64,000 bases of DNA from Nitrospina sp. (GTDB lineage: Bacteria; Nitrospinota; Nitrospinia; Nitrospinales; JACRGP01): NCBI GenBank assembly GCA_024648695.1, contig JACAVV010000018.1:1-64000 (forward strand), in the 5' to 3' direction. Every line of letters begins with the position of its first letter. Positions within the stretch are counted from its first letter, which is position 1. A model generated the notes under the pieces. It was not told the origin of the DNA and searched no databases. It saw only the letters and a list, made by a program, of their open reading frames with translations. A program made the position numbers and the translations under genes. Shown piece by piece: positions 207 through 12,867 of the stretch.

Positions 207-2756
207 TTATTTCCCAGTAATCCTCTTTAAATTTTGAATACGGTTTTTGAATTGATTGGTGACGTAGGTGGCGTCGTCGGTGTTGGAGATGACGTGCGGT
301 GTTAAGAAAAGCATCAACTCGGTTTTGCTATTGTTTTGGACTTCTGTACCAAATAATTTTCCTATGTAAGGAATATCCTTTAGCAAGGGGATACCCTCAC
401 TGGTAATATTGATTCGGTTTCGCATTAGGCCCCCCATCACCAGGGATTGATTGTCTTTCAAAACCACTTCAGTCGATACTGTCCGGGTGTTGAAGGTGGG
501 TTGTTGGGTCGTCGTATCTCTAACCCCAAGTTCACTGATTTCGTGATCGATTTTCAGATTTACAAAATTTTCATTATTGATTTTTGGTTCGATGTTCAAG
601 ATGACACCTACGCTACGAAACTCAACCTGTTGGGTGATCTGGCTACCTGAAGTACTGGGTGTCGATGTGGTGGTTACAATTGGGACTTCATCCGTAATGG
701 ATATGCTGGCAGGCTTGTTATCTGAAGTAACCAGGATAGGGTTGGCCACCACGTTTACATCTGAATCTGTAGCGACTGCCTGGATTTGGGAAACAAATTG
801 ATTTGCTGAGCCTGCAAATAAACTCATTCCTGAAGCTAAAGTACCCGTGGCAGTGCCAATTGAACCGCCCAATAAGGACTCAGCGGCAGTAGAACCAAAC
901 TGAATATTGTTATCTCCAATTTTAGTTTCAAAAATGCCTTCAATTCCTATTCGGAGGTCTTCGGTAATTGTTAAATCCAGAATCAACACCTCAATAAGAA
1001 CCTGTTGCGGCATGAGATCAAGCTTGTTCAATAATTCAAGAATAGCCGGGTAATTCCTCGGGCTGGTGCGTATGATCAGGGAATTTGTATCCTTATCCGG
1101 AATTACTGTTAATTCGCCTTCTACGTCCTCATCTATCCCTCCCGTCACCTTCACCGTTGTTGATTTGGTAGCGGCGGTTGCTGTGGCGGCGTTAGTTCGG
1201 GGTTTAGTGATGTCTTTTTGGGGTTTGGTTTTGGTGTCTTTATCATCAGTCTTTGTGCTGGTGGATTTGGAGCCTTTGGTTGTTTTTGTGGTTTTGCTTT
1301 TTGAACCCTTTTTCGTTTTCGTATCGGCCTTCTTTTCCTGAAAGATGGATTTCAGCAAACTTGCCAGGGTATCGGCTTCTGCGTTTTGTACGTAATAGAC
1401 GAAGGTACTGAGTTTGCTCACGCCAATGAATACGGGATGGTCCAGCTTGTCCATCCAGAACTCGATAGTTGGGGTAAGGTTTTCGAAACTGTTCACCACG
1501 AGCACGGCGTTCAATCGCTCGATCGCCAAAAAGTTTAATGATTCTCCCAACACTTCCTTATAACCGATGGTGGAGAAGATTTCGTTCAACTCGTCTACCA
1601 GGATGATGGCGTCGGCGTGATCTACTTTATACAATTGCACGTTCGATTGTGCCAGCTTGTCGATGTCCAAAGCCTGCACCACTTTGATGATTCGCTTTAC
1701 GTTGGAGGCCAATTCTACAATCATCAGGTTGCTGGTTTCGGGCACATCGATGAATGTGGCATTTTTGGTGAGCAGGGGCGAAATGATTTTCTTGATTGAT
1801 TCCACTGAGATGTGCTTCAAGGGAATGATCTGGATGACCAGCCTGTCATTGTCCGGCAGATTCGATTTTTCTCCAAAATGAATGCTGACCGGTTTCTTCA
1901 CGGCATCGGGGATTGGCAGGAAACGGTAAAAATTTCCGCTCTTCACAACAGTAATATTGTTTATGGCGATGATCTGTTCCAGCACCGAATATAAATCTTC
2001 CACTGCAATGTTTTTAAAAGTTTGCAAAGTAATTTTTCCCGACACGGCACCTTCGATCACATAGTTGATTTGCAGTAATTCGCAGAAGGTGGTGATGACG
2101 TCATAGATGTCGGTATTCTCAAAATTGAGTGTGATGAATTTGGCATCGACCAACTCCTTGGGCAGGGGAGGGGTCGGATCAAATATCGTTTCCATTTTCT
2201 TGAGAGATACCTTTTCCTGCAGTTTCACCAGTTCTTTATCGTGTGTGATCTGGGAATACAAACTCGATACAAAGTACCGGTTGCCCCTGCGGTCCTGAAC
2301 GAGATACCAGTCTTCCGCATTGTCCGGTCCTTTGGTGATCTGCATCAAGGTGAACACATCGCCTTTACGAGTGGTGGTCGCAATCTTGAATTTGCGTCCG
2401 GGTCCTTTTCTCAACTTAACGCTTTCGCCGGTGATGGTGACGGTTTTGGAAGTCAGGTCCACCGGCAGTTTATCTAGCTTGATTTCCAGATCGCGCGCGA
2501 TGTTGGACCCGGGGATGGTTTCTGGTAGCGACCGGCCGCCCTTTAACGGAACATTTTTATTGATCGGGCCGTTGGCGTTGCCTCCGGTAGAGCCGTGTGG
2601 TAATTTCATGGCGTCTACTGGGTCCAAAATGGAATCACTTTGATCCAGGACACCTATTGGAGAATTTTCCAGGGCCGTTTTGACGGGCCTGTCGGTTTCA
2701 CAAGCTGTGAATATAAACAGGGCGCTGAGTAGAAGTGCGGTTGTTCTAATGATCAT
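207..2756 (-). CDS. gspD: Type II secretion secretin GspD with N-terminal SH3-like domain
   Basis: Outer-membrane secretin channel of the T2SS. The 849-aa protein has a lipoprotein-type signal ending FTAC (Cys19), a disordered stretch, a bacterial SH3-like module at about residues 104-170 (VKLRKGPG, EDWYLV), N0/N1/N2 periplasmic domains (about 205-440), N3 interrupted by a Lys/Thr-rich insertion (about 475-545) and the secretin barrel (about 600-835; VPIVTTT, VGVILNIEP, LVMGGLM, PYIGKLFG). The lipobox may replace a GspS pilotin for outer-membrane targeting; that is inference. It is the last gene of the operon and overlaps gspM by ATGA. The usual position of gspD is second, after gspC. Confidence 0.95.
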   Translation of the reverse strand: MIIRTTALLLSALFIFTACETDRPVKTALENSPIGVLDQSDSILDPVDAMKLPHGSTGGNANGPINKNVPLKGGRSLPETIPGSNIARDLEIKLDKLPVDLTSKTVTITGESVKLRKGPGRKFKIATTTRKGDVFTLMQITKGPDNAEDWYLVQDRRGNRYFVSSLYSQITHDKELVKLQEKVSLKKMETIFDPTPPLPKELVDAKFITLNFENTDIYDVITTFCELLQINYVIEGAVSGKITLQTFKNIAVEDLYSVLEQIIAINNITVVKSGNFYRFLPIPDAVKKPVSIHFGEKSNLPDNDRLVIQIIPLKHISVESIKKIISPLLTKNATFIDVPETSNLMIVELASNVKRIIKVVQALDIDKLAQSNVQLYKVDHADAIILVDELNEIFSTIGYKEVLGESLNFLAIERLNAVLVVNSFENLTPTIEFWMDKLDHPVFIGVSKLSTFVYYVQNAEADTLASLLKSIFQEKKADTKTKKGSKSKTTKTTKGSKSTSTKTDDKDTKTKPQKDITKPRTNAATATAATKSTTVKVTGGIDEDVEGELTVIPDKDTNSLIIRTSPRNYPAILELLNKLDLMPQQVLIEVLILDLTITEDLRIGIEGIFETKIGDNNIQFGSTAAESLLGGSIGTATGTLASGMSLFAGSANQFVSQIQAVATDSDVNVVANPILVTSDNKPASISITDEVPIVTTTSTPSTSGSQITQQVEFRSVGVILNIEPKINNENFVNLKIDHEISELGVRDTTTQQPTFNTRTVSTEVVLKDNQSLVMGGLMRNRINITSEGIPLLKDIPYIGKLFGTEVQNNSKTELMLFLTPHVISNTDDATYVTNQFKNRIQNLKRITGK

Positions 2757-3331
2757 GATCGTTTGGCCTTGGGCGGTTCGAGCTGTTTAAGGAATCCGTT
2801 GACCCGGAGCTTGGTTTTCAATTGCTCGGGACTTTCATTTTTACCCATTTTCTTTATCGAGATTTCTTCGATAAGTATGAGCTTTTTATGGTTTTCAATT
2901 TTTGTTAAGAATCTGGACAGGTTTTTCAACGTAGATTGGACAGTGGTTTCGACCGATATGGTAAACAGGCCCTCTGTGTATTTGGTCTTTTCCGTCCGGG
3001 TGCTGATGATGGCTACAGATGACTCCCTGGCGAAGGATTCCAGAATTTTTTGCAACGTAGCTGAAGCCAGTGACGCCTTTTTCTGATTGAAAAACTGTTC
3101 GTCCAGGCTGGTTTTCAGGATTTGGTTCGACTGCTTTTTATTCTTATAGTAGGTTCCGTTGTTCAGGATTTCATAATATTTTTTAATGAACAGCGCTTTG
3201 CTTTCTATTTTGGAGTCGATGCCCTTGCTTTTTTTGTAAAAAGGCTCAATGCCATAAACATAGAGACAATAAACAATGATACATAAAAACCCAACCAACA
3301 AAAACTTTTTTTCCCTGGATGATGCGTTCAT
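2753..3331 (-). CDS. gspM: T2SS inner-membrane platform protein GspM-like
   Basis: 192 aa with a short cytoplasmic N-terminus, one transmembrane segment (about residues 9-28) and a periplasmic coiled-coil plus ferredoxin-like region, the PilO/GspM architecture. Sequence identity in this family is low, so the call rests on topology, size and position. The gene overlaps gspL upstream and gspD downstream by ATGA each. Its product is expected to pair with GspL in the inner-membrane assembly platform. Confidence 0.8.
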   Translation of the reverse strand: MNASSREKKFLLVGFLCIIVYCLYVYGIEPFYKKSKGIDSKIESKALFIKKYYEILNNGTYYKNKKQSNQILKTSLDEQFFNQKKASLASATLQKILESFARESSVAIISTRTEKTKYTEGLFTISVETTVQSTLKNLSRFLTKIENHKKLILIEEISIKKMGKNESPEQLKTKLRVNGFLKQLEPPKAKRS

Positions 3332-4812
3332 GACGGCGGTATTCCTTCAAGGGTGGACTGGATGGTAAACTTTTCTCCCCGGTTGGACTTCACAATGCTT
3401 CCTTTAAAAGAAGTGTCTTTTAACAGAGGCGAATTTTCCAAAATCTGGATCAGCCCCGATGCCGCTTTGGAGTATCCTTTGATCTGCAACACATCCTCAT
3501 CCACATTGATGTCCGAAAGGTAAGTTCCTTCCGGAATGATGCGTGACAGCTCCTGCAGGATTGGCAGTTTGGAAGGCAGACGTTTTTCGAGCCGTGTGAT
3601 GATTTCGGCGTACTGGTTGAGATCATCAAATTCAATATCGATTTGCTCGAAAGGTGCCGCCTGGGTCTGGACCTCCTTCAATTGTTTGTTGAGAGTGGCC
3701 AGTGCACGTACCTTGGAATAATACTCGCTTCCCAGTGCGGCCAGCAAAGCGACGAAAACAACAATCACCAATCCTACAGTGATCTTGTAATTTACCTTTT
3801 TCTTTTTCGGCCGGATTTCGGGAGGAAGCAGGTTCAATTCGGCAACCGGCGAACGAATCTCCCGGCACGCCAGGCCAAAGGCAGTGCTGTAAAAAGCCGG
3901 ATTGAATTGCGCGCTGTTGGCTCCATTGCCATTGCTAAAAAATTCCAGGCATCGCGTCGAGACTTGCGCTTCCTCCTGAATTTCGTGCATCAGGCTTTGT
4001 AAAAACGGCCCGCCACCGGTGACGAAAATTTGATCGACTTCCTCATCGCTGTCAATTTTTGTGCAGGAGGCCAGGGTGGTCATGATTTCACTCAGAACCG
4101 TTTTGGAAAACTTTTTGCCCAGGGCATTTAAATGTTGTGGAGGGATTTCCTCCATGAAGAAGCCTTTTTTGATGTTCGAATCATTTATGGGAATCGAACG
4201 CGTGGCAATCATCATGCCGTTTTTGGCCAGGCAAATTTCCATCCTTTGCGAGTCGATATCCACTACACAGAAGAGACTGCCTGCATTTTTCTCGCTTTGC
4301 CAAACCAAATTCAAATGGGAAAATGTAGAAACGTCCAGAGCCGTAGGCTTGATCGAAAGTTTCTCCATCAATTCCAGGTAATAATTGACGATCTCCTTGC
4401 GCAAGGAACACAGGGTCACCTGAAAATTGTTTTCGTATTCGGCTATGGCATGGTAGGAAAAATACAAATCCTCGGCTTTGGAAAAAAAATGCCGCTCCAG
4501 TTCGAACTCCACCATGGAGTCGATCACGTTGAGATCGGGTGCCGGCAGAGGAAAGGTCTGAAAACTCACCAGGTTACGCGGCAAACTGATGACTACGGTG
4601 GGAGTGTAGGCATTGTATTGCATCAGGAATTTGTTGATGCCGTCCAGGAATGCCTTTTCCGTGCGTTCGTCGGCCGGGTCGAGGGGTTTGATGTGGAAAT
4701 GATCGTATCCCAGAACATCAATTCCCTTAAACTGTTTGCCTAAATAGGCGAGCGCGACCGACTCTTCACGAATGTCGATGCCTAGTACTTTATCAAGATA
4801 AATGGGTTTCAT
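3328..4812 (-). CDS. gspL: T2SS protein GspL, PilM/PilN-like fusion
   Basis: 494 aa. Residues about 1-320 form an actin-like cytoplasmic domain of the PilM/GspL type (GIDIREESVALAYLG near the N-terminus; FVTGGGP at about 235). One membrane span lies at about 345-365, followed by a PilN-like periplasmic coiled coil and ferredoxin-like domain. GspL bridges the GspE ATPase to the pseudopilus platform with GspM. ATGA overlaps on both sides imply translational coupling. A 203-aa open frame on the opposite strand (4132-4743) is a shadow. Confidence 0.88.
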   Translation of the reverse strand: MKPIYLDKVLGIDIREESVALAYLGKQFKGIDVLGYDHFHIKPLDPADERTEKAFLDGINKFLMQYNAYTPTVVISLPRNLVSFQTFPLPAPDLNVIDSMVEFELERHFFSKAEDLYFSYHAIAEYENNFQVTLCSLRKEIVNYYLELMEKLSIKPTALDVSTFSHLNLVWQSEKNAGSLFCVVDIDSQRMEICLAKNGMMIATRSIPINDSNIKKGFFMEEIPPQHLNALGKKFSKTVLSEIMTTLASCTKIDSDEEVDQIFVTGGGPFLQSLMHEIQEEAQVSTRCLEFFSNGNGANSAQFNPAFYSTAFGLACREIRSPVAELNLLPPEIRPKKKKVNYKITVGLVIVVFVALLAALGSEYYSKVRALATLNKQLKEVQTQAAPFEQIDIEFDDLNQYAEIITRLEKRLPSKLPILQELSRIIPEGTYLSDINVDEDVLQIKGYSKAASGLIQILENSPLLKDTSFKGSIVKSNRGEKFTIQSTLEGIPPS

Positions 4813-5885
4813 GATTCGATAAGGTTGTCGTTCCAGTAGCGGATCAGTAAAGTCGCTTTCTCGCCTGCACCCAATTTCTCTATTATAGCGGTGATGGTGT
4901 GCCTGGTTTTGCTGTCGTTCAGCTTTCCCGTTGAGACAATCCTGAAATGAGTCGACTTAATATTGTTATAATACCCCTTTTCGGCAATGGCTTCGTTAAT
5001 TTCCTGAATTTGTTGTTCCGAGTAAAACATTTCCAGCATTTCAGGTTCTGCTGTGTTGGGATTGAAGTTACCGATATTTTGTGTGGTGAAATAATTGACC
5101 AGACCAAGGTACTGAGCGCTTTCGGGATCTACATTCTCCGTTTGTTCTGAACCATATAGAATCTCTTCCGTCACTCCCCTCACTTTGATCAATTCCTCGA
5201 CACTGTCCAGAGGCCCATTTTTCGCCTTATAAGAAGTGGACTGCGTTTTGTAATAAAACGTTTCCGCCCCATTCAAGCGGTGTTTGCTGTCGGGATCGAT
5301 CCAGTCGAGAATGGAATCCGCAATGGTGTCGCGCAGTTCACCAATTTCCAGTCCGGAAGCCGTGAGGGCTTTCACCAGGACGGAACGGGACGCAGTGTTG
5401 ATATTGATCTTGCTGTTTTCATCTTTGATGCTGTAGGTGATAGTACCGTTCCCCAGCGGAATATCTTCCCTCACCACGGGTTCGATGACAGACTCTGATT
5501 CCGATTCGGTTTCCTCATCAATGGACACTTTATTGGTCAAGGGTTCCACCTTATTCGTTTTTTCCTCAGAGTTTTGATCAACGCCCTCCTCACCTTCTTT
5601 TTCAGGTTTGCTTCCAAAAATGAAACCAGTTTCTTCGCTAAAAGCGTGGTAGTCGACCTTTTTGAGAATTTCCGCCATCGCAAGATTGATGCCCGCTTTG
5701 GCGAGGTAATAGGATTCGAAATCTTCTTTATAATTCATAGTGGCATTCACTTCGGTTTTGATGGACAAGGCGAACTCGGTGCCAAGAGCGGTCAGGAGGA
5801 CGAGAATCCACACCACCATCATAAGGGCAATGCCCCTTTGATTGTTTACCAGGAGATGACGAATGAAAGAATCAGCCCGTTTCAT
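4809..5885 (-). CDS. gspK: T2SS minor pseudopilin GspK
   Basis: Minor pseudopilin expected at the pseudopilus tip with GspI and GspJ. It has a prepilin-type N-terminus (NNQRGIALMMVVWILVLLTA) and the large alpha-helical insertion typical of GspK, including helix-hairpin-helix-like segments (NINTASRSVLVKAL; NFNPNTAEPEMLEMF). An Asp/Glu-rich stretch lies at about 85-135. I prefer the ATG at 5885 (358 aa) because GGAGG sits 6 nt upstream; an in-frame ATG at 5903 would add 6 residues. It overlaps gspJ by 14 bp and gspL by ATGA. Confidence 0.9.
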   Translation of the reverse strand: MKRADSFIRHLLVNNQRGIALMMVVWILVLLTALGTEFALSIKTEVNATMNYKEDFESYYLAKAGINLAMAEILKKVDYHAFSEETGFIFGSKPEKEGEEGVDQNSEEKTNKVEPLTNKVSIDEETESESESVIEPVVREDIPLGNGTITYSIKDENSKININTASRSVLVKALTASGLEIGELRDTIADSILDWIDPDSKHRLNGAETFYYKTQSTSYKAKNGPLDSVEELIKVRGVTEEILYGSEQTENVDPESAQYLGLVNYFTTQNIGNFNPNTAEPEMLEMFYSEQQIQEINEAIAEKGYYNNIKSTHFRIVSTGKLNDSKTRHTITAIIEKLGAGEKATLLIRYWNDNLIES

Positions 5886-6768
5886 CTCCGGCCTCCTCTT
5901 CATCGGTTTCCACTACAGTTCGAATAAACTCGATCCCGTTATTGAAGGGGATAATCACCGTTGGCAGTTCAATCGGTTTCGTCTCCTCCTCATCGTCCTC
6001 TTTTCCGGGCCTGGCTACGGGAGTCAATGAAAGGGAAACCTCAATCGCGCGCGGCATGGTGATATCCTTTTTGTCAATTTTGTTCTCCTTCACCTGAGTC
6101 CGGGCTGCACTGTTGATTTCGTCCTGCACCTCTTCCACCTGAAAAATCACTTCATCAATCCACTCTCCCTGAAATTTGACCTTCTCATCCTCCTGAAACT
6201 CCAACTCTTCCTGGGAAAGCTTATCCACCTTGTAATACCGGAAACTCAGATCGGAAACGTTTTTGGCCAGCAGGATATACCGCGTTGCCTCGTCCTGGGG
6301 ATCGGGTGTGCTGAAGACATCGTCGTATGCGATTTCACGTTCCATCATGATCACTCCGAAATCCTCGGTTCCAGGTTTTTCGCCCAGGTAAAACTGAACC
6401 TCATGCATCAGCGGTTTGCGCTCGTAAGCCGTCATTGTGTCGGCGAAAGAAACGAAACGTATCGAATTTCTCAGTCCTTCAAAAGCCATCAGTTTTTTTC
6501 TGGATTTGGGACGTTCCGCCGGAGTGTCGGCGTCTTCGCCCTGGTCCGGGTCATAAAACAGGGGGTGGAAGGATCGAATGGTACGCGCCATCTGGTCCTG
6601 AATGAACCGCAGGCGTTGATAGGTGTCCGCTTTTTGTTCACCAATCTCGCGCGAAGCGACCCCCATTTTGATGCCACCCAGAGCGACCGCTACGATACCC
6701 ACGATGATGGTCATTGAGATCATTAGCTCAAGGAGGGTGAATCCGCATTGATTCTTGTATTTGTTCAT
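5872..6768 (-). CDS. gspJ: T2SS minor pseudopilin GspJ
   Basis: 298 aa with the leader/cleavage motif QCG^FTLLELMISMTII (Glu5 of the mature protein present), then a globular domain. It is longer than typical GspJ (about 200 aa) because of charged insertions and an acidic C-terminal tail (EEEAGDETG). It starts at ATG 6768, 2 nt after the gspI stop. GspJ forms the tip complex with GspI and GspK. Confidence 0.88.
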   Translation of the reverse strand: MNKYKNQCGFTLLELMISMTIIVGIVAVALGGIKMGVASREIGEQKADTYQRLRFIQDQMARTIRSFHPLFYDPDQGEDADTPAERPKSRKKLMAFEGLRNSIRFVSFADTMTAYERKPLMHEVQFYLGEKPGTEDFGVIMMEREIAYDDVFSTPDPQDEATRYILLAKNVSDLSFRYYKVDKLSQEELEFQEDEKVKFQGEWIDEVIFQVEEVQDEINSAARTQVKENKIDKKDITMPRAIEVSLSLTPVARPGKEDDEEETKPIELPTVIIPFNNGIEFIRTVVETDEEEAGDETG

Positions 6769-6770
6769 CG

Positions 6771-7427
6771 CTAGGACCCCGAAATATTCGAAGTGCCAGA
6801 GGTGGTCGCACCGCTGATGTTGGAGGAGGGGGTGGTACTTCCGGAAACGTTGGATCCCGTGGGACCCGTTCCCGTTCCCGAACCCGAAGTTCCGCCGGAA
6901 GAACCGAGAGCGTTCTGTGTCTTTTCTCCTCCGCCACTGCCTTTTTTATTCTTTCCCCAAAGGACATCATTGGAGGAGGGATAGGTTTTGCCCATTGTTT
7001 TAAGGGATACGAGTTCCAGGTTTCTTTCCGTGCCTATGTCCCCCCAGAGCACTCTAAGGGTTACCCGGTTGACGCGGATATTTTCTTTTTCGTTGGTGAG
7101 GGGAGTCTCAAAAGGTTCAACGATCAATTCCCAGCGGTACTCGGGGGAGTCCTCCTCTTCCTCCGGAAAGGTGCCTGAGGCCTCTTCCACTTCGAAATCG
7201 AGCAATTCCAGTTCGCCCATTTTGTGGTTGGCCAGCGCAACCCCTTTCATATATTGACTGGAAAGGTCGAGGGAACGCACACTGCCGGAAAAAACCCGAA
7301 GTATGAGGACAAAGCCAGCCGCCATGATCGCCATGGCGACTACAATTTCGATAAGCGTGAAACCCTGTTCAGGTTTCTTCTTCGGAAATTTCAGCTTTGC
7401 CAGTGACCTGATCCAGTTCAATGACAT
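6771..7427 (-). CDS. gspI: T2SS minor pseudopilin GspI with Gly/Ser/Thr-rich tail
   Basis: Prepilin leader PEQG^FTLIEIVVAMAIMAAG followed by a GspI-like domain. I place the start at ATG 7427 (MSLNW, 218 aa), giving a 22-residue leader and a 59-bp overlap with gspH; frames extending further upstream only shadow gspH. The last 55 or so residues are almost entirely Gly, Ser and Thr with repeated NISG/NVSG motifs, absent from ordinary GspI (about 120 aa). The tail may be flexible or surface exposed; its function is unknown. Confidence 0.85.
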   Translation of the reverse strand: MSLNWIRSLAKLKFPKKKPEQGFTLIEIVVAMAIMAAGFVLILRVFSGSVRSLDLSSQYMKGVALANHKMGELELLDFEVEEASGTFPEEEEDSPEYRWELIVEPFETPLTNEKENIRVNRVTLRVLWGDIGTERNLELVSLKTMGKTYPSSNDVLWGKNKKGSGGGEKTQNALGSSGGTSGSGTGTGPTGSNVSGSTTPSSNISGATTSGTSNISGS

Positions 7428-7968
7428 AATGGGTTTCGTCGTCCTCGGAATGTTTACTGACCAGGTTGATGAGTCCCCCGCTGGTGTTACCCTGGGGATA
7501 GAACACGATAAAAAATTCACCGTCATGGACGGTTTCTTCATCGTCCGAAAACTCCTTGATTCGGATATTGTTTCCCACATCGTAGAGTTTTTGTGGTTTT
7601 GCATCAGATTCCGTACCAATTTCTCCGCCATCTTCCTCCCCGGACGGGCCGCTCAACCAATAACGGTTGTCGTCGATATTGGCTGTAAACCGGAAGGGTA
7701 CTTTTTGCGCAATGGCCTGACTTCTTGCCAACCGCAGGGACGATGCAATCTTGCGGACCTCGCTATGGATCTGGTTTCGGTGCAATGTAGACATCACGAA
7801 GGGAGTCACCATGCCAGCCATGAAGCCGACCAGGACCAAAACAAGAATCAGTTCCAGCAGGGAAAACCCTTGCTGACCAGACCGGTACCGCAAAAGTTTA
7901 ATCGAGCCCTTTCCAGCTAACGATATCCTGGTCGTTACCCTCACCGCCTTCGGCATTGTCGGCACCAT
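7369..7968 (-). CDS. gspH: T2SS minor pseudopilin GspH
   Basis: Pseudopilin with prepilin motif SGQQG^FSLLELILVLVLVGF and a GspH-type beta domain. The longest frame (ATG 7968, 199 aa) overlaps gspG by 71 bp and gives a 34-residue leader whose first part only shadows gspG. A TTG at 7893, just after the gspG stop and about 12 nt downstream of AAAGGG, would give an 8-9 residue leader and is a realistic alternative start. GspH caps or extends the pseudopilus below the GspI/J/K tip. Confidence 0.85.
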   Translation of the reverse strand: MVPTMPKAVRVTTRISLAGKGSIKLLRYRSGQQGFSLLELILVLVLVGFMAGMVTPFVMSTLHRNQIHSEVRKIASSLRLARSQAIAQKVPFRFTANIDDNRYWLSGPSGEEDGGEIGTESDAKPQKLYDVGNNIRIKEFSDDEETVHDGEFFIVFYPQGNTSGGLINLVSKHSEDDETHYVIELDQVTGKAEISEEET

Positions 7969-8335
7969 AAGATATTAAATCATAATCGCCATGATCTCCC
8001 GGAGACCGGTAAACGTACTCATTTCCCCAGGGGTCTTTGGGGAGATCTTTTTTCATATAAGGACGAAGGATTGCCAGGCCCTCCTCTGTGGTCGGGTATT
8101 TGTGCTTTTCCAGCCGGTAAATATCGAGAGTTTGTCCCAGCAGTTCGATTTGCGCTTGTGCGTCCTTTTGCTTCGCCTGGTCCACCTGACCAAATAATTT
8201 GGGGCCGACCAGACCGGCTAAAAGACCGATGATGACCAGAACCACCAATAACTCGATCAGTGAAAATCCGCGGGAGTTATTAAGCAGTGTGGTCTTTAAA
8301 TCGTATTTGGATGTTGGCATTGTTTTCCGTTTCAT
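7898..8335 (-). CDS. gspG: T2SS major pseudopilin GspG
   Basis: 145 aa. The N-terminus carries the prepilin motif SRG^FSLIELLVVLVIIGLLAG; the C-terminal domain has the GspG signatures YPTTEEGL, LPKDPWGNEY and a Ca-binding-type loop (GADNAEGGEGNDQD). It is the main subunit of the pseudopilus. ATG 8335 is used; an internal ATG at 8320 is possible. It lies 11 bp downstream of gspF. Confidence 0.95.
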   Translation of the reverse strand: MKRKTMPTSKYDLKTTLLNNSRGFSLIELLVVLVIIGLLAGLVGPKLFGQVDQAKQKDAQAQIELLGQTLDIYRLEKHKYPTTEEGLAILRPYMKKDLPKDPWGNEYVYRSPGDHGDYDLISYGADNAEGGEGNDQDIVSWKGLD

Positions 8336-8346
8336 TGAGTGAGAGG

Positions 8347-9573
8347 TTAAAGTGGGATCTCGTTCATACTGAAGATACCCATCAACATGGAAATAACTAT
8401 AAAGCCGATGATACAGGCCATCATTAAAATCATCATAGGCTCCATAAGTGAAATGATTTGTTTGATCGACCGCTCTACTTCCTTGTCGTAGATGGTTGCA
8501 ATTTTTAAAAGCATGTCGTCAAGAGAACCGGTTTCTTCGCCCACCGTTATCATGTGGATCGCAAGGGGAGGAAACACATTAATTTTTCTGAGCGGTTCCG
8601 TGATGCCTTTACCGCTTTTCAGTCCGTCGTGCAGATGTTCCATAGCCTTGGAAATCACCTTGTTGGTTAAAATGCTCCTGGTAATGAGCAAAGCTTGTAG
8701 CACCGGTACGCCGCTTTTTAATAAGGTGGACATGGTACGGCTGAACCGGGACACTTCTACTTTTTGAATGAGGCTACCCAGCAAAGGCACCTTGAGTTTA
8801 AGCGCGTCCCATTGATGCCCTCCGCGTTCAGTGTTGGTGTAGTTTCGAAAGACGAGTCCTGAAAACACCAAACCTAAAAGGAGAGCCCACCAGTAATCGA
8901 TGAACAAATGACTCATGGAAATGACCAGAAGCGTGGTTACCGGAAGACCTTGCATATCCTCTCCAAAGACTGAGGAAAGTTGAGGAACCACGAAAAGCAT
9001 CAGGAACACCAGCGCTGATCCACACACCAGAACCAGAATGGCTGGATAGATCATAGCCGATGCGACCTTGCCTTTTAATTCCTGCAGGTCTTCAAGGAAT
9101 TCTTCCAGACGATCCAAAACCGAACCCAGGACGCCACCTGCTTCTCCAGCGCGCACCATGTTCATGTAAAGTTTGGAGAACACTTTAGGGTGTTCGGCAA
9201 GCGCCGCCGAAAAGGTGCTCCCGGCATGGACCCGCTTGTGAATATCCGACAGCACGTTGCGGGTTTTATCCTTTTCCGTCAGTTTGACCAGGGTTCCCAG
9301 ACTTTCGTCCAGGGTCAGCCCGGAATTGATGAGCGTTGATAACTGCTGGGTAAAATTAAGCAACTCTTTTGGCGAGACGGGCGGAAAAAGTTCGTAAGAA
9401 GGGAGTTGGATGTCCAGCGAAAAGCTTTTTTTGGGTTTTTGCGTGTGGATCTGGATCGGGAAATGATTGATGCTCCTGATTTTTTGAATAGCTGTGCGCT
9501 GATCGGGAGCTTCAATATCTCCCTCAACAAACTTGCCTTTTGAATCCGTCGCCTGATAAAAAAACTGTGCCAT
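8347..9573 (-). CDS. gspF: T2SS inner-membrane platform protein GspF
   Basis: 408 aa, polytopic, with two T2SSF domains (about 70-195 and 273-395) separated by membrane spans (LVLVCGSALVFLMLFVV; YWWALLLGLVFSG). Signature stretches include RAGEAGG and TVGEETGSLDDML. It forms the core of the assembly platform that couples GspE ATPase activity to pseudopilus growth. It lies 31 bp after gspE. Confidence 0.94.
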   Translation of the reverse strand: MAQFFYQATDSKGKFVEGDIEAPDQRTAIQKIRSINHFPIQIHTQKPKKSFSLDIQLPSYELFPPVSPKELLNFTQQLSTLINSGLTLDESLGTLVKLTEKDKTRNVLSDIHKRVHAGSTFSAALAEHPKVFSKLYMNMVRAGEAGGVLGSVLDRLEEFLEDLQELKGKVASAMIYPAILVLVCGSALVFLMLFVVPQLSSVFGEDMQGLPVTTLLVISMSHLFIDYWWALLLGLVFSGLVFRNYTNTERGGHQWDALKLKVPLLGSLIQKVEVSRFSRTMSTLLKSGVPVLQALLITRSILTNKVISKAMEHLHDGLKSGKGITEPLRKINVFPPLAIHMITVGEETGSLDDMLLKIATIYDKEVERSIKQIISLMEPMMILMMACIIGFIVISMLMGIFSMNEIPL

Positions 9574-9604: not shown

Positions 9605-11311
9605 TTAACCCTGATCGTCCAAAGTGACACGTAACACCTCTTCCACTGTGGTTTGACCATTGAGGACTTTATCCCAACCGTCTTCACGCAGGGTGCGCAT
9701 TCCCGTTTTGCGGGCTTGACTGCGGATGATATGAGAACTGGCTTTGGATAAAATTAGCTCGCGGACCGCTTCGTCAATGACTAAAAGTTCGTAAATGCCG
9801 CATCGTCCACGAAACCCGGTGTGCGCGCATTTTTTGCATCCCTGTCCTCGGAACACTTTCATGCCTTCTTTTCCCCAGGGCCCCATTTCCTTGACCAGAG
9901 CGGGTTCCAAAGGAAGTTCCAGTTTGCAATGCTGGCAAATCACGCGAACCAGTCGTTGCGCCAATACGCCAAGAAGAGCGGACGAAATCAAAAAACTTTC
10001 AATCCCCATATCCTGCAATCGCGTGATGGCGCCTGCAGAATCGTTCGTATGAACAGTGCTGAATACCAGATGGCCGGTTAACGCGGCCTGAATGGAAATG
10101 TCGGCAGTTTCCGGGTCGCGAATCTCACCAACCATAATCACATCAGGATCCTGGCGCACAATAGATCGAAGGCCATTTACAAAAGTCAGGCCGATACTGG
10201 GTTTTACGTGGATCTGATTGACGCCCCGCAGTTGGTATTCTACCGGGTCTTCAATGGTGATGATTTTCTTGTCAGGTGTGTTGATCTTTTGCAGGGACGC
10301 GTACAGTGTCGTCGACTTACCGCTCCCTGTGGGGCCGGTTACAAGAATTTTGCCATAAGGCTTTTGGATCAAGGATTGAAAACTTTGTAGCTCTTTATCT
10401 GGAAATCCAAGATGGTCGAGATCGACCATGATATTGCCGCGATCCAGAATACGCATGACCACACTTTCCCCGTAAAGCGTGGGTAGGGTGGAGACCCGTA
10501 AATCAATGTCTTTGCCCATTGCCTTCAAACGAATCCTTCCATCCTGCGGCAATCGCCTTTCGGAGATATCCAGTTTTGCCATGATTTTTATTCGGGTGCT
10601 TAAGGCCGAGTGCAGTTTTTTCGGAGGCGACTCAAAATCGTGAAGCATGCCGTCAATGCGGTAGCGCAAAATCATGTCGTCAAGAAAAGGTTCCAGATGA
10701 ATATCGCTGGCGCCCAATTCGATGGCCTGACTCAGAATATGGTTGACCAGTTTTATGACAGGTGCCTCAGACGCCATGTCCTTGATATGTTCGGTACTGT
10801 CCTCTTCGGCATCAAGATCTGTGATGTCCTCACCCTGAATGCTCTCCACCATGCGGTCCATGGCCGAGCTTCCCTGGCCATAAAATGTTTCGATGGCTTG
10901 AAGAATATCTTCTTCACTACTCAGGCAAATTTCAATTTCCCTGCCGATCGCAAGGTTCAATTCTTCCAGGGCGAAGTGGTTGAAGGGATTGAACACGCAG
11001 ATGGTCAATTTCCCTTCATCCATTTTTAATGGAAAAATCATTTGGTCCCTCAGGAAGGCATCGGACACTTCGAACTCCGGTATCGGTAAACTTTCTTTGG
11101 GGTAATCCTCATATCTCAGATATGGAAGGTTCATCTGTTGGCTCAATGTCTCTAAAAGCGTTTGAGAATTGATGTAGCCATGTTCCACCAGAGTTTTACC
11201 CAGATAGTTTCCATTGCGGAAATTATTGGTTTTGATTTCCTTCAGAGTTTGCGAATTTATTTTTTCCTGATCCAAAAGTATTTGTTCAAGAGGATCGACT
11301 TTTTTTAACAT
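9605..11311 (-). CDS. gspE: T2SS assembly ATPase GspE
   Basis: 568 aa. It has an N-terminal MshEN/GspE-N domain (about 1-150), Walker A GPTGSGKSTTLY, an Asp box around ITIEDPVEYQ, Walker B region VGEIRDPETADI and a His box (TGHLVFSTVHTNDS). The C-terminal zinc-binding element has paired cysteines (CQHC and CKKC). It is the cytoplasmic hexameric ATPase powering the T2SS. It lies 13 bp after gspC. Confidence 0.96.
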   Translation of the reverse strand: MLKKVDPLEQILLDQEKINSQTLKEIKTNNFRNGNYLGKTLVEHGYINSQTLLETLSQQMNLPYLRYEDYPKESLPIPEFEVSDAFLRDQMIFPLKMDEGKLTICVFNPFNHFALEELNLAIGREIEICLSSEEDILQAIETFYGQGSSAMDRMVESIQGEDITDLDAEEDSTEHIKDMASEAPVIKLVNHILSQAIELGASDIHLEPFLDDMILRYRIDGMLHDFESPPKKLHSALSTRIKIMAKLDISERRLPQDGRIRLKAMGKDIDLRVSTLPTLYGESVVMRILDRGNIMVDLDHLGFPDKELQSFQSLIQKPYGKILVTGPTGSGKSTTLYASLQKINTPDKKIITIEDPVEYQLRGVNQIHVKPSIGLTFVNGLRSIVRQDPDVIMVGEIRDPETADISIQAALTGHLVFSTVHTNDSAGAITRLQDMGIESFLISSALLGVLAQRLVRVICQHCKLELPLEPALVKEMGPWGKEGMKVFRGQGCKKCAHTGFRGRCGIYELLVIDEAVRELILSKASSHIIRSQARKTGMRTLREDGWDKVLNGQTTVEEVLRVTLDDQG

Positions 11312-11324
11312 GGGAAATTATCCA

Positions 11325-12140
11325 TCATCGTCCGGAAATGTGAGACCCAGAAGTACCCGCTCCACTCACCGCGGCCCGCCGGTTTTTATTACCTGATATG
11401 CGATCTATAACGGAAAGCCTTCTTTCCGCTTCCGGAACCGTTCGCCTGCCTGAAACCCTGGCAGGGGGAGGCCTTTTCGCCTGATTGGCCTGATTCTTAT
11501 TGGCATTGCTCGCCTTTTTAATTTCAGCGGGACTGGGTCGTTTTCCTTTATGGTAGAAGTGGTTGCCGTCCCTTTTTATCTGAAATTTTTCCTCCCGCGG
11601 TTCCAGGCTCACTTTGACGATACTGCCTTCGCGGTCATCCAGAGTCACAGTTTTTCGGTTGACGTCTGTAATAAAATAAGTGCCGATTTGAGATCCAACC
11701 TTATAACCCTTTTTCTTCAGCTTTTTCTTCTCGAAATCCCGTTCCCCCTTAAATATGGAATATTCCCCTTCCAACACGGCAATTTTTTTAGTGCCGAGAA
11801 GCATGATGCCGTTCACTTTCAATTTGGGTGGAGGCACTTTTGGTTTCGGAGGAGGAGGAGGCGGTGCGGCTGGAGGGGCTGGTGGCGGAGGGGGTGGTTT
11901 TACGTATTCCTTACGCTCCTTACGAAACAAGTTGTTTTGAGATACCTCTTCGATCACTTCGGGACTGTATGCCTGACGCAGGGAACCGGGAGCCATGAAC
12001 TTTTTGTCCAGAGCCACCACTTGGTCTCCATCCACTTTATCGGGATGTTTCGGGTGATACCAGATATCCACCAACCAAGCGACAAAGACGAGAATGGTTA
12101 AGCCCAAAACAATATTTATAAAAGAAAATGTTTTGTACAT
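11325..12140 (-). CDS. gspC: T2SS linker protein GspC-like
   Basis: 271 aa with one N-terminal membrane segment (about 7-26), a proline-rich linker (about 82-108, runs of 6 Pro) and a homology-region-like beta domain (LKVNGIMLLG...IAVLEGEYSIF, about 110-185). A basic low-complexity C-terminus ends SGSHISGR; no PDZ domain is visible. In the family, HR binds the N0 domain of GspD and links inner and outer membrane parts. It is the first gene of the operon, with ATG 12140 24 nt from the predicted transcription start. Confidence 0.8.
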   Translation of the reverse strand: MYKTFSFINIVLGLTILVFVAWLVDIWYHPKHPDKVDGDQVVALDKKFMAPGSLRQAYSPEVIEEVSQNNLFRKERKEYVKPPPPPPAPPAAPPPPPPKPKVPPPKLKVNGIMLLGTKKIAVLEGEYSIFKGERDFEKKKLKKKGYKVGSQIGTYFITDVNRKTVTLDDREGSIVKVSLEPREEKFQIKRDGNHFYHKGKRPSPAEIKKASNANKNQANQAKRPPPARVSGRRTVPEAERRLSVIDRISGNKNRRAAVSGAGTSGSHISGR

Positions 12141-12510: not shown

Positions 12511-12867
12511 ATGAGTTCACAGGGATTATTAACGGAAATCAAAAAACACCTTCCGTTTCGGGTTTATGGAAAAGGGCCAGTGCTGGAATTATTCAAGGCA
12601 GGCGGCCATTTTGTTAATAAAAAGACAGAGCTGGAAGCAACAGAGGTGTTTCGTTCGGATGAGTCGGGAGAACTGGTTTGCACCGTGGTGTTTGATGGAA
12701 AGGAAAAAATATCTGCGGCTCTCACCAATTTAAAACTGGATATTTCCCATCCGCTATTCAATAAGGTCAGAAATTATCGAAGAGAGGTCGAAGTGGAACT
12801 TTCGCAACAGGAGGCTCCGGATGTCAACCGAGCGTCTTTTCGGATTAAAGATCTTTACAAAAAATAA
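12511..12867 (+). CDS. conserved-looking small cytoplasmic protein, unknown
   Basis: 118 aa, not recognised. No signal peptide or membrane span; mixed alpha/beta pattern with a charged C-terminus. Support for a real gene: AAGGA 7 nt before ATG 12511, balanced amino-acid composition and codon use like the neighbours. It stands alone, divergent from the T2SS operon and 430 bp before the cpoB-like gene, so context gives no function. Confidence 0.7.
   Translation: MSSQGLLTEIKKHLPFRVYGKGPVLELFKAGGHFVNKKTELEATEVFRSDESGELVCTVVFDGKEKISAALTNLKLDISHPLFNKVRNYRREVEVELSQQEAPDVNRASFRIKDLYKK

Follow-up and report, generated by a model that had tools for sequence, protein, structure and literature searches.

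Secretins anchored by a lipid and secretins carrying an N-terminal peptidoglycan-binding module are each already known. HxcQ of Pseudomonas aeruginosa and XpsD of Xanthomonas are GspD proteins, the secretins of the type II secretion system (T2SS), and have a lipoprotein signal peptide and lipobox according to the relevant passage of a Legionella review; an extract of the AspS paper presents HxcQ as a lipoprotein that the Lol route can target with no pilotin involved. These partial descriptions, on which our comparison draws, mention no SH3 domain in either protein. LspD of the Legionella T2SS is given in the review passage as lacking a lipobox but having a predicted SPOR domain, neither GspA, GspB nor a pilotin of the PulS or AspS type having been found, and a section of the OutB paper calls it the only T2SS secretin known with such a specialised peptidoglycan-binding domain, just before N0. 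The same section cites the AMIN domains of PilQ, the secretin of type IV pili rather than of a T2SS, as peptidoglycan-binding modules before N0, while in other systems, as far as these sources go, separate proteins (GspB/OutB, GspAB) tie the secretin to peptidoglycan and aid its assembly. BfpB, from a type IVb pilus, is in the part of its paper concerned a lipoprotein secretin said to need no pilotin and having an extended N3 loop, there a beta-hairpin; the term SH3 appears nowhere in that paper's text. Here we describe a gspD gene in a 64,000-nucleotide stretch of Nitrospina sp. (GenBank assembly GCA_024648695.1, contig JACAVV010000018.1, positions 1 to 64,000; hereafter the window), the predicted product of which looks like HxcQ and LspD combined in one chain, with an SH3 domain before N0. 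In our judgement, little work outside the Proteobacteria has addressed the way in which a secretin gets through the wall and to the outer membrane when it has no helper proteins.

The gene (207-2756, minus strand) encodes 849 amino acids, and its family matches indicate that the product is a T2SS secretin GspD, scoring 405.3 bits against type_II_gspD (TIGR02517; NCBIfam cut-off 351.35). The N0 domain begins near residue 207 (1908-2138, end approximate), where it is matched by PF21305 at residues 210-278 (45 bits, cut-off 27) and, in structure, by the N0 of XcpQ (Z 10.9). Three stretches match Secretin_N (PF03958), and together with the model they place N1 and N2 (1407-1907, boundaries approximate) and a loop-split N3 (residues 451-585, 1002-1406); the Pfam part of the Secretin domain (PF00263, 159.7 bits) covers residues 661-823 (288-776). 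The gene is the last of a T2SS operon in the order gspC, E, F, G, H, I, J, K, L, M, D, in which gspC, gspI and gspJ were placed chiefly by position. Two comparison sets were used, the window protein with 29 relatives from its order (30 GspD) and 38 named loci from Nitrospina, Nitrospinaceae and other Nitrospinae/Nitrospinota records; these share genomes, so their counts are not additive, and L044, read in a wrong frame, was omitted from the named set; its genome appears to be that of L012. Counted by order and not by the gaps between genes, gspM and gspD matches are adjacent in all 38 named loci, and gspC lies in the same gene order too at 25. Alignment A1 held 26 of the 30 rows and A3 held 14 picked for diversity; rows were left out for undetermined residues (L023 from A2, L064 from A5 to A7), for cuts at contig ends (L042 and L068 from A5; L037, L042 and L068 from A7) or otherwise (L037 and L068 from A6; L072, which has no SH3).

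The reading we favour, with confidence slightly better than even, is that of a self-piloting liposecretin whose ring of SH3 domains grips the wall. Signal peptidase II would leave a lipidated Cys19, and the Lol pathway, by analogy with HxcQ, would deliver the subunits to the outer membrane with no need of a pilotin. The bacterial SH3 (SH3b) domain, which has a linker on either side and immediately precedes N0, would be present as a ring level with the peptidoglycan and would grip it, doing the job that falls elsewhere to GspB/OutB, the SPOR domain of LspD or the AMIN domains of PilQ, and the N0-N3 domains and barrel would work as in other T2SSs. Such a design may need no accessory factor. A fuller version, in which this is an accessory-free T2SS secretin, one chain acting as pilotin through its lipid and as GspAB or SPOR through SH3b, with flexible lipid-SH3 arms tying the pore to both membrane and wall, seems to us plausible at somewhat less than even confidence. 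What speaks for the favoured reading, at the level of sequence and model, is the family assignment, the operon, the lipobox cysteine, the SH3 fold, the absence of two pilotin families, the short C-terminal tail and the presence of LolA. The design would join two known tricks, and it is widespread in one phylum; since Cys19 and the SH3 domain could be removed one without the other, the question lends itself to testing.

The N-terminus reads as a lipoprotein signal peptide (residues 1-18) followed by a lipobox cysteine (FTA-C, Cys19, with Glu at +2; 2700-2756). The preliminary description, made from the letters of the window alone, had taken Cys19 in FTAC to predict lipidation, and the residue is conserved: it aligns with a cysteine in all 30 GspD, at positions 19-21, in leaders that otherwise diverge. 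In the overlapping named set a lipobox cysteine was present in the 36 proteins read of 37, the 37th being L044, and L012, apparently from the same genome, has Cys19. None of 36 GspD read has Asp at +2, the residue that serves as an inner-membrane signal in E. coli. LolA is present in 64 of the 77 genomes of the phylum, including that of the window. By its lipobox the window GspD is, in sequence, a member of the liposecretin kind, and these observations are consistent with predicted lipidation and sorting to the outer membrane. It could be argued that the lipobox is fortuitous and that signal peptidase I makes the cut, since the motif is loose in several relatives (WYGC, LPGC, WNSC, GLGC); we consider this very improbable, as the cysteine is kept in 30 of 30 proteins while the rest of the leader diverges, and an ortholog without the SH3 domain (L109) keeps the lipobox too.

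Between the lipobox and N0 lie a first linker (residues 20-104, 2445-2699), modelled mostly as disorder (pLDDT mostly <50), the SH3b (SH3_3) domain (residues 105-171, 2244-2444) and a second linker (residues 172-206, 2139-2243) of partly low pLDDT and partly modelled as disorder. Against Pfam the SH3_3 match is weak in the window protein, at 17.8 bits (E 0.0037) over the full length and 24.7 bits for the segment alone, both below the cut-off of 27. The family was matched at E<=0.1 in all 29 segments scanned (the window and 28 relatives, L023 being omitted for undetermined residues; best 1.5e-7), and N-terminal segments of orthologs outside the order pass the cut-off (L078, 31.1 bits; L081, 41.0; L107, 34.5). 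AlphaFold2, supplied with 34 aligned rows, models residues 105-171 as seven strands, in blocks mostly at pLDDT 82-93, so that the SH3 barrel is modelled with confidence, as the preliminary description had anticipated in placing an SH3-like module at about residues 104-170. Structural matches found with Foldseek and re-examined with VIA-align include 3npf, titled a dipeptidyl-peptidase (Z 12.1, rmsd 1.8, 66 aligned), of which the matched portion is presumably its SH3 domain; 9ovi, titled an SH3-like_bac-type domain (Z 9.3, rmsd 2.5, 67 aligned); the SH3-like 8b2g (Z 9.2); 2krs, likewise under an SH3 or SH3-like title (Z 9.9, but rmsd 7.0); lysostaphin 4lxc (Z 8.2); the SH3 domain of a muramidase in a structure that includes triglycine (8b2f, Z 8.2); and NlpC/P60 proteins and endolysins. 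SH3 domains of this kind are often found in cell-wall enzymes. Alignments of the domain hold an invariant GPG, one Trp and one Phe, and its net charge is +3 to +11 in 29 of the 30 proteins. Over 37 rows the linkers measure 53-86 amino acids from Cys to SH3 and 34-88 from SH3 to N0, lengths that would make it geometrically possible for the lipid to sit in the outer membrane, the SH3 at the wall and N0 below. Pfam found neither SPOR nor AMIN before N0 at E<=1, and the protein, with SH3 there instead, is not of the SPOR or AMIN kinds; SH3b thus joins AMIN, SPOR and TPR among the domains seen before a secretin N0. The window genome has nine SH3_3 matches at E<=0.01, five of them over the cut-off, with the secretin among the weak ones. 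In other genomes of the phylum, a large protein that by eye resembles a PHP-type hydrolase has a similar SH3 domain at its C-terminus (L212, twice; L214; L215; L216).

Searches for pilotins covered two families, PulS/OutS and AspS, each of which was absent from all 77 genomes of the phylum, that of the window included, and positive in the E. coli control. Beyond the Secretin domain the chain ends in a tail of 26 residues (210-287), and the tail is 23-39 amino acids long in 29 of the 30 GspD and 85 in one. Judged by length only, against the usual size of such a domain, it looks too short for a pilotin-binding S-domain. The genes that follow gspD in 16 loci, read from their sequences, appear to be mostly metabolic.

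The profile for SH3 joined to N0 found full-length matches in 45 of 387 genomes, all 45 among the 77 of the window's phylum; they comprise 42 of the 64 genomes of the order, the window's own included, and 3 of the 13 class members beyond it. In one more genome of the order, G042, the lipobox and half of the SH3 lie at a contig end. By family search, 48 of the 77 have a GspD over the cut-off; other members of the phylum carry a plain GspD that lacks both lipobox and SH3, and in G076 the two kinds occur together. Outside the phylum, our SH3 profile found the domain in none of 64 GspD N-termini read, out of 68 N0 matches (G115, G132, G264 and G339 were left unread), with about 1000 bases upstream of N0 taken and three of the 64 (L149, L154, L180) open at the 5' end; nor did Pfam report an SH3 family at E<=0.01 in the 31 of the 64 with N0 at residue 95 or beyond. 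As the search samples other phyla thinly and our profile could miss a very different SH3, the absence of SH3-bearing GspD there is not proven. A strict lipobox rule was passed by 8 of the 64, and more have one by eye, so that predicted lipoprotein GspD are not rare. The modules before N0 vary in these outside proteins (L149-L211, L217), with TPR in 4 and AMIN in 2 of the 31 scanned.

When 42 GspD cores of the phylum are placed on a tree, 2 changes suffice for the SH3 label, compared with 8.4 in shuffles, and one clade of 34 rows (support 100/99) contains all 33 SH3 proteins together with L109, which has no SH3. This fits one gain and one loss. Supports nearest L109 are modest (94/90, 90/84) and its branch is long; the program warned that long branches meet, and the root serves for drawing only. 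No SH3-bearing secretin was described in the titles and abstract beginnings of the open-licence PubMed Central literature searched. The preliminary description had held that GspD normally has a plain signal peptide and begins at N0, a contrast drawn too sharply given the lipidated HxcQ and XpsD and the SPOR and AMIN domains before N0 mentioned above; what appears to be new is that an SH3 domain occupies this place and is combined with a lipid anchor, an arrangement that we found only in this phylum.

Several observations weigh against the wall-gripping liposecretin. A shared fold shows no ligand, and it is from the fold that we infer peptidoglycan binding; the invariant GPG, Trp and Phe may all be structural, and the SH3 of the ortholog L012 has a net charge of 0. 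LolB was absent from the matches in the window genome, in a search that matched only E. coli among 14 controls; LolB is often missing outside the beta- and gammaproteobacteria. The lack of the two pilotins is only permissive and singles out nothing, because members of the phylum with a plain GspD lack PulS/OutS and AspS too. The search for anchors covered GspB, with none of the 77 genomes over the cut-off, nine sub-threshold matches, one of them in the window genome, and no positive control matched; the weak match in the window genome (C4:51554-51664) has a second secretin close to it on C4 and, by position, is more likely a PilP-type protein. The absence of the two pilotin families agrees with the suggestion that the channel may do without GspS or GspAB, but it does not discriminate. 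In 2 of the 16 loci a TPR lipoprotein directly follows gspD (L043:12370-13095 and L066:12382-13113, which are related loci), and these could be candidate pilotins of another family. The system is also patchy: no full SH3-N0 match was found in 22 of the 64 order genomes, some of them more than 95% complete, nor in any of the four relatives in the window's own family, at 71-86% completeness. Finally, L109 presumably works without an SH3 domain.

The role of the SH3 domain may also be confined to assembly, with monomers parked in the wall until the lipid and the barrel have been inserted and no lasting anchor remaining. Excerpts of the literature give this idea some footing, in that the peptidoglycan-binding ExeAB of Aeromonas works in secretin assembly and secretin multimers of E. 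coli are unable to pass normal peptidoglycan, but the SH3 copies would stay in the finished pore, and we regard this alternative as quite improbable.

An alternative that we find unlikely, if far from negligible, keeps the self-piloting liposecretin and has its SH3 bind a protein instead of peptidoglycan, be it another subunit of the T2SS, the N-domains of the same chain or some protein of the envelope. The fold is silent on the ligand, as noted, and the SH3 adjoins N0 in the chain, the domain on which, in the part of the Dickeya work concerned, the HR domain of GspB docks; GspC and GspI moreover carry conserved, ligand-like motifs at their C-termini, of the form x-[IV]-S-G-x. Two candidate ligands were considered. 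One was polyproline in GspC, which the window protein has; runs of at least four prolines occur in only 11 of the 25 GspC read, and also in SH3-less L072 (a contig that matches G061, placed in the window's class by genome search). The other was the HISG tails, where [IV]SG is absent from the GspC of four loci with SH3 (L043, L044, L066, L067) and present in L072. Neither tracks the SH3 domain; binding to polyproline was rejected, and binding to the HISG tails is not supported.

The tail motifs deserve description in their own right. They are repeated and often form the last residues of GspC and GspI (HISGR, NISGN), as at 11325-11342 for GspC and from 6771 onward for GspI in the window; the motif was also noted in L248, L245 and L230. 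Within the last 60 amino acids, [IV]SG occurs in 21 of 25 GspC compared with 1.0 expected from shuffled tails, and 20 of the 25 have H[IV]SG close to their end; the GspC of L043 and L066, the loci with the TPR lipoproteins, are without the HISG motif. [IV]SG occurs in 23 of 33 ORFs of the GspI region (3.6 expected; some are probably misread frames), above chance in GspM (9 of 38, 0.7 expected), in 5 of 38 GspK (1.7 expected) and near background in the other subunits. Further proteins that end in such repeats are a pair of neighbours in the window genome (C34) that look secreted, a small lipoprotein of G034 and, in G061, an ORF of 41 residues, and HISGAIT is found in linkers of outgroup GspD (L081, L107). 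Searched at the DNA level, the C-terminal pattern is hardly commoner than in a reversed control (G000, 15 vs 12; G060, 12 vs 8; G034, 14 vs 9; G061, 9 vs 16), which argues against wide use, as does the finding that most other matches read are ORFs of 7-53 amino acids; the internal pattern in G000 gave 103 matches vs 34 in a control that does not keep codon use. The motif may be a docking, sorting or processing tag.

The preliminary description had also singled out a 70-residue Lys/Thr-rich insertion interrupting N3. The stretch is there, within the Secretin_N match at residues 451-585 that we take as N3: residues 475-545 are 52% Lys and Thr, and the richest 65 residues hold 37 of them, compared with at most 28 in 2000 shuffles. 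In the AlphaFold2 model the part at residues 478-541 (model residues 113-176; 1134-1325) is disordered, with nearly all pLDDT <50. A low-complexity loop occurs at this site in all 30 GspD, 71 amino acids long in the window and 46-63 in the 29 relatives, where Lys and Thr make up 18-39%, and alignments with two solved GspD sequences are interrupted there as well. The idea of a special device was thus set aside; this is an ordinary variable, disordered N3 loop, unusual only in composition.

The rest of the operon, on the minus strand like gspD, begins with gspC (11325-12140), which ends in SHISGR, has no significant Pfam match and was placed by position and conserved synteny. Upstream of it, on the plus strand, is a 118-aa protein (12511-12867) that matches no Pfam or NCBIfam family at the thresholds applied; tblastn located it in 11 of the 38 named loci, upstream of gspC and again on the opposite strand, a count in which many loci end too early to tell. 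After gspC come gspE (9605-11311) and gspF (8347-9573), both by family match, gspG (7898-8335; Pfam) and gspH (7369-7968; family match). The gspI ORF (6771-7631), the true start of which is probably further in, ends SNISGATTSGTSNISGS, and like gspJ (5872-6768) it was assigned by position and an N_methyl match. The remaining genes are gspK (4809-5903; Pfam), a gspL-like gene (3328-4812) with a PilM and PilN match, and gspM (2753-3331), matched by T2SSM_b at 43.9 bits (cut-off 21.7).

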